From Bacteroidota bacterium (GTDB taxonomy: Bacteria; Bacteroidota; Bacteroidia; AKYH767-A; OLB10): 34,029 bases of DNA. Every line of letters begins with the position of its first letter. Within the stretch, counting starts at the first letter, position 1. The DNA lies in contig JANXSD010000006.1 in NCBI GenBank assembly GCA_025352785.1, positions 1 through 34,029 on the forward strand, read 5' to 3'. A program made the position numbers and the translations under genes. Below are positions 23,107 through 25,849 of this stretch, in pieces. The notes beneath the pieces were generated by a model. It was not told the DNA's origin. It did not search any database and was given only the letters and a program-made list of their open reading frames with translations.

Positions 23107-24426
23107 ATGATAAATACTCAAACAGCACAATACGTTAAATTTAAGGTTAAAGATATTTCTTTAGCAGAATGGGGACGTAAAGAAATTAAATTGGCTGAAG
23201 TAGAAATGCCAGGTTTAATGGCGCTTCGTGCTGAATATGGTGCACAAAAACCCCTTAAGGGTGCTCGCATAGCAGGATGTTTACACATGACTATTCAAAC
23301 TGCTGTACTTATTGAAACTTTAGTAGAATTAGGAGCCGAAGTTACTTGGTCGTCCTGTAATATATTTTCTACGCAAGATCATGCTGCTGCTGCCGTTGCT
23401 GCTGCTGGTGTATCTGTTTATGCTTGGAAAGGTTTAAATGAACAAGAATTTGATTGGTGTATCGAGCAAACATTGTTTTTTGGTGAAGATCGTAAACCAT
23501 TAAATATGATCCTTGATGACGGTGGTGATCTTACCAATATGGTTCTTGATCGTTATCCGGAATTAATCGCAGCAATTAAAGGGATTTCTGAAGAAACTAC
23601 GACAGGTGTTCATCGTCTTTACGAGCGTATGAAAAATGGAACTCTCCCTCTTCCAGCTATTAATATCAACGATAGTGTTACAAAATCAAAATTCGATAAT
23701 AAATATGGTTGCCGTGAGTCATTAGTGGATGCGATTCGCCGTGCAACAGATATTATGATGGCAGGTAAAGTTGCAGTTGTCGCTGGTTTTGGTGACGTTG
23801 GAAAAGGTTCTGCTGATTCTTTACGTGATTCAAAAGTTCGTGTTATTGTAACTGAGATCGATCCAATTTGTGCCTTACAAGCGGCTATGGAAGGGTATGA
23901 AGTGAAGAAAATGTCGGATGCAGTGAAAGAAGCTGATATCATTGTAACGGCTACTGGAAATTATAATATTATTACAGAAGCACATTTCAATTCGATGAAG
24001 CATAACGCAATCGTTTGTAACATTGGTCACTTCGACAATGAAATTGATATGGCATGGTTAAACGCTACTCATGGAAAATCAAAGGATACCATCAAGCCTC
24101 AAGTTGATAAATACACAATTGGAAATAAAGATATTCTTATTCTTGCTGAAGGTCGTTTAGTAAATCTTGGTTGTGCAATGGGACACCCTTCGTTTGTTAT
24201 GTCAAATTCATTTTCAAACCAAACTATTGCTCAACTAGAGTTATGGATGAATCCTGGTAAGTATGAGAACAAAGTTTATACTTTGCCGAAACATCTTGAT
24301 GAGAAAGTTGCTCGTTTGCACCTCGCTAAAATTGGCGTTGAATTAGATGAGCTTACACCAGTACAAGCTAAGTATATTGGTGTTGATAAAGATGGTCCCT
24401 ACAAGCCTGAATATTATCGCTATTAA
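23107..24426 (+). CDS. ahcY: Adenosylhomocysteinase (SAH hydrolase)
   Basis: 439 residues. It splits S-adenosylhomocysteine into adenosine and homocysteine, removing the inhibitor of methyltransferases. Family marks: '[17 protein letters not shown]' (His60), '[16 protein letters not shown]' (81-96), 'LDDGGDLTN' (136-144), '[12 protein letters not shown]' (162-173), '[14 protein letters not shown]' (193-206; Lys193 and Asp197 are the expected active-site residues), the NAD-binding 'AGFGDVGKG' (226-234), and the C-terminal 'YKPEYYRY', whose Lys and Tyr reach the NAD of the partner subunit. It is cytoplasmic and usually tetrameric. It has its own promoter and a strong shared terminator. Homocysteine from this reaction can feed the cystathionine beta-synthase-type enzyme at 17809-19176. 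Confidence 0.97.
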
Positions 24427-24480: not shown

Positions 24481-24524
24481 ATAAAAAATGCCCTGAAGTT
24501 ATTGTACTTCAGGGCATTTTTTAT
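24481..24524. terminator. Bidirectional terminator between ahcY and the Rieske-like gene
   Basis: A perfect 19-bp inverted repeat (24481-24499 with 24506-24524), loop of six, with six T on each strand. It serves ahcY on the plus strand and the lipoprotein gene (stop at 24531) on the minus strand. The core CCCTGAAGT/ACTTCAGGG recurs at 3288-3311. Confidence 0.92.
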
Positions 24525-24530
24525 GACTCA

Positions 24531-24974
24531 CTAATTATAAATATGAAGTGAATTGCTCGAAAGTAAATCCGCATGATATTGCTTAAGGGGTACTACCGCT
24601 GGACCATTTGTTACCGATCCATCAAATAAGCTAAACTGACTACCACAGCAGGAATCAATTGCTAGAATGTTATTGGGAATTACTCTTACTAAAGCACATG
24701 TTGCCGTAGGATCATAGGTGCAAGTCCTGTCATAAACTGCATACTCGGTTCCTGATCGCCTAAAAATTATTAGACCCCTATTGCCAGCACCATAATAAAC
24801 CCAGCCATTAACAGAATTTAAGTTGAGATAAGAGGGTAAACTTAGATTAATGTACTCATTTACATAGGTATATGGGATATCGCTGTTCGTCTTTTTGCAA
24901 GAAGATACGAGCACAATGGAGCAAATTATGATGAGGTAATATACAAATTTTATGTATTTAGATTTATTCTTCAT
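24531..24974 (-). CDS. Lipoprotein with Rieske-like fold lacking the cluster ligands
   Basis: 147 residues from the ATG at 24974; the frame extends to 25055 but the added part overlaps the next gene's start. Lipoprotein signal with Cys26 ('IVLVSSCKK'). The body follows the Rieske pattern: 'NRGLIIFRRSGTEYAVYDRTCTY' leads into box I, and 'SCCGSQFSLFDGSVTNGPAVVPLKQY' matches box II and the Pro-loop tail (GSxFxxxxGxxxxGPAxxPLxxY). In true Rieske proteins the ligands are C-x-H and C-x-x-H. Here box I is C85-T-Y87 and box II reads D107-S-C-C110-G-S, so three of four ligands are replaced. C93 and C109 could still form the usual disulfide. It is therefore probably a cluster-free binding or structural protein at a membrane. 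It has no partner gene. Confidence 0.7.
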   Translation of the reverse strand: MKNKSKYIKFVYYLIIICSIVLVSSCKKTNSDIPYTYVNEYINLSLPSYLNLNSVNGWVYYGAGNRGLIIFRRSGTEYAVYDRTCTYDPTATCALVRVIPNNILAIDSCCGSQFSLFDGSVTNGPAVVPLKQYHADLLSSNSLHIYN

Positions 24975-25039: not shown

Positions 25040-25444
25040 ATGAACCGTCAATCAATATTACTTATTTCGGCTTTTATGTTCCTATTTGGTGCAGTTAAAG
25101 CTCAAGAAACACAAAAAATTACTGCGCCAACAAATCAATATGAAAGTGGATCTCACGGTGGGATACTATTTACAGAAGGGTTTAATACGATGGAATTTCT
25201 AAAGAAAAATAAATCATTTGTTGTTTTTCCGGATGATCATACCACGCAAACAGCAGAAATTGGAAAAGCAAAATTTACAATCGTTGACGATAACAAAACA
25301 ATTGTAATTGAAAATGTACCTTTCAAATCGGGTATGTTCATGGCAGATACAAAACAAGATTTTGTACATCCAAAAATAAAATTTGAAACAACTATTAATG
25401 GTAAACCTTGTGTGATGAATTTTGAAATGCCTTCAAGACAATAA
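25040..25444 (+). CDS. Small secreted protein, unknown function
   Basis: 134 residues. Residues 1-21 are a Sec signal peptide ('ILLISAFMFLFGAVKAQ', probable cut after Ala20 or Gln22). The mature part, about 110 residues, is beta-rich with alternating polar and hydrophobic residues ('TIVDDNKTIVIENVPFKSG', 'KIKFETTINGKPCVMNFEMP') and a single Cys. No family is recognised. The likely location is the periplasm. It has a consensus promoter and a terminator of its own and is divergent from the Rieske-like lipoprotein gene; the 65-bp gap between them could coordinate the two. Confidence 0.72.
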   Translation: MNRQSILLISAFMFLFGAVKAQETQKITAPTNQYESGSHGGILFTEGFNTMEFLKKNKSFVVFPDDHTTQTAEIGKAKFTIVDDNKTIVIENVPFKSGMFMADTKQDFVHPKIKFETTINGKPCVMNFEMPSRQ

Positions 25445-25549: not shown

Positions 25550-25849
25550 ATGAAAAAACTTATTTTATTGATTCTCTTATTTGTAAACATTCAATTCACT
25601 CTCGCGCAATCGGAGGGAGGTGGATCTACAAAAATGCAGAAGAAGGCAGCTCAAAAAAAGGAACAACAAGCTAAGGCTTCTGCGAAAGCTGAAGAGAAAG
25701 GTCGAAAACACCATATTTCTATTCAATCAAAGGATGTCAAAAAAAGAATGAAACGAAATAGTAAACGTTATGATCACGTTGCCTCTTTCGATCGTCGTCC
25801 GAATTTTATCCAACGACTTTTTCATCGAAAAAAACCAACTGCTTATTAA
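25550..25849 (+). CDS. Small highly basic exported protein, unknown function
   Basis: 99 residues from the ATG at 25550; a TTG at 25535 lies five codons upstream within the terminator tail and is less likely. Signal peptide about 1-20 ('LILLILLFVNIQFTLAQ'). The mature part is very rich in Lys, Arg, Ala and Gln: 'KMQKKAAQKKEQQAKASAKAEEKGRKHH' forms a charged helix, followed by 'VKKRMKRNSKRYDH' and an Arg/Lys end. Exported proteins of this type could bind acidic polymers such as lipopolysaccharide or nucleic acid, but that is a guess. The gene starts just after a strong terminator, so either read-through or an overlapped promoter must drive it. Confidence 0.65.
   Translation: MKKLILLILLFVNIQFTLAQSEGGGSTKMQKKAAQKKEQQAKASAKAEEKGRKHHISIQSKDVKKRMKRNSKRYDHVASFDRRPNFIQRLFHRKKPTAY

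Follow-up and report, generated by a model that had tools for sequence, protein, structure and literature searches.

The gene at positions 24531 to 24974 of the window, the whole stretch of 34,029 nucleotides analyzed here, raises the question of what remains of a Rieske protein when the ligands of its iron-sulfur cluster are replaced. The original prediction described the product, P0001, as a Rieske-fold lipoprotein with three of four cluster ligands gone, and proposed ligand binding or redox chemistry by the pair C109-C110 as a new role. Our best explanation, to which we assign a probability of roughly 0.62, is that P0001 belongs to a family of lipid-anchored, cofactor-free Rieske-fold envelope proteins that has a wide distribution among Bacteroidia and serves in binding or scaffolding and not in electron transfer.

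Identification of the gene and its parts

The gene is real but lies on the minus strand; the plus strand across 24531-24974 contains many stops, and the coordinates are valid on the minus strand only. The residue numbering of the prediction (C85-T-Y87, C93 and D107-S-C109-C110) proved exact, as did the kept pattern GSxFxxxxGxxxxGPAxxPLxxY, which is matched without deviation by the segment GSQFSLFDGSVTNGPAVVPLKQY. At the ligand positions C85 is kept, while H87 is replaced by Y, C107 by D and H110 by C. The N-terminus consists of a hydrophobic stretch ending in LVSSC26, by sequence the signal of a bacterial lipoprotein. On one side the gene is flanked by S-adenosylhomocysteinase (23107-24426, plus strand) and on the other by a divergent exported gene at 25040; here and below, names of neighboring genes such as S-adenosylhomocysteinase were assigned by us from sequence. 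The following features are referred to throughout, and the conservation counts cover 164 non-redundant members of the family.

24531..24974, minus strand: gene of the putatively cluster-less Rieske-fold lipoprotein P0001, 147 amino acids plus stop, ATG start (from translation and orthologues)
24897..24974, minus strand: lipoprotein signal peptide with lipobox Cys26, residues 1-26 (LVSSC; C26 in 163/164 members)
24774..24785, minus strand: family-specific loop G64-N-R-G67, closing the stretch 61-66 (G67 in 164/164, G64 in 161/164; loop lengths)
24696..24722, minus strand: former box I, C85-T-Y87-D-P-T-A-T-C93 (Rieske: C-x-H-x-G-C)
24639..24656, minus strand: former box II, D107-S-C109-C110-G-S112 (Rieske: C-x-C-H-G-S)
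24534..24536, minus strand: C-terminal Asn147, the final residue (Asn in 155/164, at the very last position in 143/164)

P0001 is a Rieske protein by descent and fold

Single-sequence scans against Pfam and NCBIfam returned weak matches only, all below the cut-offs; even at E up to 10 the matches of P0001 did not include PF00355, and its curated score was not reached. The best phmmer match in the PDB was a Rieske protein with a weak E of 0.8, and a PDB search with an alignment from the window's order recovered solely Rieske proteins (E 0.15-0.17). Profile-profile comparison by hhalign of alignment A3 (P0001 and 80 relatives) with alignment A4 (21 Rieske proteins of the cluster type, taken from Bacteroidota genomes) gave E = 4e-29 over 123 columns. 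The AlphaFold2 model of P0001 has a mean pLDDT of 90.9 and a pTM of 0.77. Foldseek with this model listed Rieske proteins in its first rows (8hn2 at E 2.9e-5), and VIA-align returned Z scores of 11.9 for PetC3 (5cxm), 11.6 for 9rk4, 11.4 for 8hn2 and 11.2 for AioB (1g8j_B), with Rieske entries present throughout its 50 rows. The match of P0001 to Rieske proteins is far above chance, and the Rieske fold proposed for it is supported.

The cluster-type proteins in A4 are Bacteroidota Rieske [2Fe-2S] lipoproteins with a twin-arginine-like start (MDRKEFL...). They resemble P0001 in fold, are homologous over the full length, and share with it a lipobox-like Cys and the GPA..PL..Y tail. They differ, however, in that C-x-H and C-x-x-H are kept in 33 of the 34 relatives of this type, the remaining one carrying S in place of the second Cys. 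The best structural neighbors, the b6f/bc1-type Rieske domains of PetC3 and of Chlorobaculum (8hn2), likewise differ from P0001 in holding a [2Fe-2S] cluster, and are 18% identical to it over the aligned part. The Rieske-like fold of NirD, the small subunit of NADH nitrite reductase (4aiv), appeared at Foldseek rank 28; NirD is an earlier example of such a fold that contains no cluster. NirD is a soluble cytoplasmic enzyme subunit and not a lipoprotein; since it is the cytoplasmic partner of NirB, the lipoprotein signal of P0001 speaks against an identity with NirD. The Rieske subunit of arsenite oxidase, AioB, also shares the fold but, unlike P0001, binds its cluster through Cys60-X-His62-X15-Cys78-X2-His81, as given in PMC3758308. 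P0001 is thus a Rieske protein by descent and fold, yet it lacks the ligand set that defines a Rieske [2Fe-2S] protein.

Ligand loss is the rule in the family

We collected 184 distinct members, 148 from the earlier searches and 36 from a class search (one per family code). The full C-H-C-H set occurs in none of them. Members were told from cluster-type proteins by H87 together with H110, and hence the independent part of the ligand-loss claim is the split in the tree. From this tree the ligand and cysteine columns 84, 85, 87, 93, 105, 107, 109 and 110 were left out. One branch with an SH-aLRT of 99 separated the 164 non-redundant members from the 34 cluster-type proteins, and an earlier tree gave the same split with 129 members against 34; the tree rests on few columns (105) with many open forks, and its inner detail is unresolved. 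Ligand-bearing homologues therefore exist but form a separate side of the tree, which excludes a one-off loss in P0001. Ligand loss is the rule in this family.

The residues that replaced the ligands vary. Among the 148 members, positions 85/87/107/110 read C-Y-D-C in 67, C-F-D-C in 19, C-Y-C-C in 19, C-N-C-D in 15, A-H-C-D in six and S-Y-D-S in five, with 16 combinations in total. All 30 aligned members from the window's order carry C85, D107 and C110, and position 87 is mostly Y or F. Of the three residues whose conservation had been asked about, D107 and C110 thus stand within the order, while Y87 is replaced by F in some members.

Cysteines at the old cluster site change in pairs

The usual Rieske disulfide joins the last Cys of box I and the middle Cys of box II, and this bond is absent from some Rieske proteins. 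C93 and C109 occupy these positions. Both are present in 115 of the 184 members, neither in 65, and only four members split the pair. Mapped onto the tree, the two positions changed jointly in 5.7 of 6 independent pairs (median p 0.031). These counts support the placement that the prediction gave to C93 and C109, where they could form the usual disulfide.

A second pair emerged at the former ligand positions. C85 and C110 occur together in 141 of the 184 members, and both are missing in 24; C85 occurs without C110 in 19, and C110 never without C85. All 19 members with C85 but without C110 carry C107. As 65 of the 184 members were retrieved with a search pattern requiring C85, we repeated the count without them (n=119) and obtained both in 76, neither in 24, C85 only in 19 and C110 only in 0. 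With one genome per family (36 families, rows read by eye), C85 is accompanied by C110 in 31/31 cases and S or T85 by S110 in 5/5; L247 carries C85 and C110 in the refined alignment. The control pairings C85/C109 and C93/C110 showed no link in the 184 members, with C85 lacking C109 in 60 and C110 lacking C93 in 62. Fisher p-values for the cysteine pairs ignore relatedness, and with no more than 2 to 4 changes of C85/C110 on supported branches, the tree-based test of this pair lacks the numbers to become significant (median p 0.5).

The paired changes point to two disulfides, the usual C93-C109 and a second one, C85-C110, made from former ligand positions. A C85-C110 bond closing the emptied cluster site is, judged by this covariation, the more likely arrangement. 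The redox pair C109-C110 of the original prediction was rejected: C109 goes with C93 and C110 goes with C85.

Some members deviate from these patterns. In L065, L102 and L116 the old site contains an uneven count of cysteines, a point against our best explanation. In the group L053-L067, members with S85 and S110 often carry a Cys at position 84, which again gives an odd cysteine count. Several Bacteroidales members (L161, L167, L171, L175, L199 and others) have the arrangement C105-x-C107-P-V-C110 in addition to C85, so that a new metal site could be built from four cysteines.

What might occupy the old cluster site

The main rival to a cofactor-free protein is a new metal site at the old cluster position, formed by C85, D88, D107 and C110 here and by C85, C105, C107 and C110 in some Bacteroidales, and holding Fe, Zn, Cu or a cluster with unusual ligands. 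The invariance of C85, D107 and C110 in the window's order fits this idea; that D107 and C110 would also be explained by a metal site counts against our best explanation. Position 107 is mostly D or C (D 114, C 46 and H 2 among 164), C105 is found in 22 of the 164 members, 15 of which also have C107, and a protein with a heavy-metal-binding domain (PF19335) adjoins the gene in some f2 loci. On the other hand, S85 and S110 are found in 13 of the 184 members, comprising a whole group and scattered families, and one further member each has T85/S110 and S85/N110. Such members leave no plausible site while the rest of the protein is kept, which counts against a metal site as the role of the whole family. 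Moreover, position 88 is variable (D 91, Q 29, N 9, E 8, H 7 and K 6 among 164), and residues of ligand type show no joint conservation. We therefore consider a metal site unlikely.

Alternatively, the C85-C110 disulfide could be redox active, making P0001 a thiol-disulfide exchange factor or allowing covalent docking to an envelope partner. The joint retention of C85 and C110 in 141 members would be in line with such a function, as would the report that gliding and type 9 secretion in Flavobacterium are driven by disulfides between envelope proteins (PMC12635249), although the text of that article available to us does not mention Rieske proteins. However, members with S85/S110 manage without the bond, a conserved CxxC motif is lacking, and the partner of C85 depends on the lineage (C110 or C107). 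A redox-active disulfide is possible in those lineages that keep C85-C110, but as an account of P0001 and its family it appears quite improbable.

It is far less probable still that a [2Fe-2S] cluster is bound with fewer or exchanged ligands, much as in an ordinary Rieske protein. The member closest to a complete ligand set, L062 (C-H-C-D), keeps C85, H87 and C107 and exceeds the Rieske Pfam cut-off with 25.2 against 20.3 bits. P0001, however, retains one of four ligands with both His gone, and not one member has the full set.

The family is widespread and under purifying selection

Within the window's own taxonomic family an orthologue was found in 23 of 24 genomes, with a single match each, the missing one being G017 (80% complete). 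In the order, 39 of 42 genomes carry the lipoprotein family; the raw tally of 40 was lowered because the sole match of G039 is a canonical Rieske protein (L084). In the class, the A3 profile matched 242 of 295 genomes when E was limited to 1e-10, of which twelve have a best E above 1e-20 and could be canonical; a minority of the 242 was read individually. In the phylum, a search with A1 matched 140 of 395 genomes, but this tally mixes the lipoprotein family with cluster-bearing Rieske proteins (canonical L104 reaches E 1.9e-18) and was for this reason not used as a family count. PF00355 exceeds its cut-off in 21 of the 42 genomes of the order and was not found in the window's own genome at E up to 1 (0/1). 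The lipoprotein family thus outlasts its cluster-type relatives in this order.

In five of nine close pairs dN/dS was 0.027, 0.027, 0.065, 0.081 and 0.029, dS being saturated in the other four, and reading frames are open in nearly all matches listed. The low values indicate that the family is under purifying selection and functional. Although ligands were lost in many ways, the reading of P0001 as a decaying, functionless relic is already contradicted by this selection, by the open frames, by the presence of the family in nearly the whole order, and by a conserved gene order and newly conserved features. The family of P0001 is large, occurs in many Bacteroidia and has yet to be named; our search of the open-access literature, with subscription journals mostly outside its scope, found no paper on it.

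Gene order is conserved around the lipoprotein gene

We examined 109 loci, including five cluster-type loci and 11 in which the anchor was missed by the gene caller or by clustering. Neighbors were S-adenosylhomocysteinase in 38, a small Lys-rich exported protein in 41 and SMC in nine loci. In 15 Flavobacteriaceae-like or Weeksellaceae-like loci (these lineage labels are a guess) greA adjoins the gene, and L169 and L177 combine the greA side with the S-adenosylhomocysteinase side. The conserved order argues for descent in place. Neighbors in the examined loci are mostly housekeeping genes, giving synteny but no functional lead or partner, which counts against the explanation that we favor.

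The small Lys-rich exported protein has about 90-100 amino acids and a KHH..IQSK motif (window 25550-25849, plus strand; L161:6621-6896, minus strand) and is divergent to the lipoprotein gene. Pfam gave no family over cut-off for these two proteins; a partnership with the lipoprotein is possible. The window gene at 25040-25444 (plus strand) encodes an exported protein of 134 amino acids with distant similarity (E 8.5e-6 to 3.7e-4) to the product encoded at the corresponding site in L139-L142, and Pfam found nothing over cut-off for it. In several loci of another family its place is taken by a heavy-metal-binding-domain protein (PF19335; L094). At 24484-24521, between convergent genes, we noticed by eye a perfect inverted repeat (TGCCCTGAAG, a loop of 8, CTTCAGGGCA) flanked by A and T runs, which is absent from the list of the repeat scan and would look like a two-way terminator. 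Four loci (L214; L169, L177 and L202) are labelled Alphaproteobacteria and Chlorobiota. Their gene content and sequence fit Bacteroidota, with L214 nearly the same as L211, and they are probably mislabelled bins.

Conserved features suggest a binding or scaffold role

Residue 82, before box I, is acidic in all 164 members and in 3 of the 34 cluster-type relatives. Position 83 is R or Q in 146 of 164, and Y133 is invariant (164/164) and common to the cluster-type proteins too. The loop at 61-66 has at least six residues in the members, whereas the cluster-type relatives mostly lack the G64/G67 insertion (a two-residue loop in 21/34), as well as the acidic residue and the C-terminal Asn. The best-conserved features, namely the lipid anchor, acidic residue 82, the two-Gly loop and the C-terminal Asn, lie outside the old cluster site. 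From the conservation of anchor, loop and C-terminus we propose that the protein, tethered by its lipid, serves in binding or as a scaffold, through an interface that may lie near the loop and the C-terminus.

The cofactor-free envelope protein that we favor would have arisen as follows. Judging from homology and from the ligand-bearing relatives, its ancestor was probably a [2Fe-2S] Rieske protein. The cluster ligands would have been lost and the site closed by a C85-C110 disulfide, or by C85-C107 in Flavobacteriaceae-like members, with the usual C93-C109 bond alongside, kept or lost as a whole. After export and lipidation at C26, the protein would stay in the envelope and may there bind or scaffold a partner instead of carrying electrons. 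Homology, predicted fold, family-wide ligand loss, paired cysteine changes, purifying selection and conserved gene order carry this explanation; from them we infer the absence of a metal, the C85-C110 bond, the membrane and side of residence, and the binding role.

A bolder version, which we regard as doubtful, holds that a single early conversion in Bacteroidia turned a Rieske electron carrier into a core envelope lipoprotein. The cluster would have been replaced by a disulfide with a shifting second half (C85-C110, C85-C107, or the pair lost), and the C-terminal Asn and the glycine loop would dock, perhaps by thiol exchange, to a class-wide envelope machine.

The family occurs in most sampled Bacteroidia genomes, and P0001 matches none of the curated Pfam or NCBIfam models; a major class thus has a common envelope protein to which no function is assigned. 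In this family a redox fold appears to have been retained for very long without its cofactor, and its members illustrate how evolution takes a cluster site apart, with many ligand combinations and with cysteines lost or gained pairwise.
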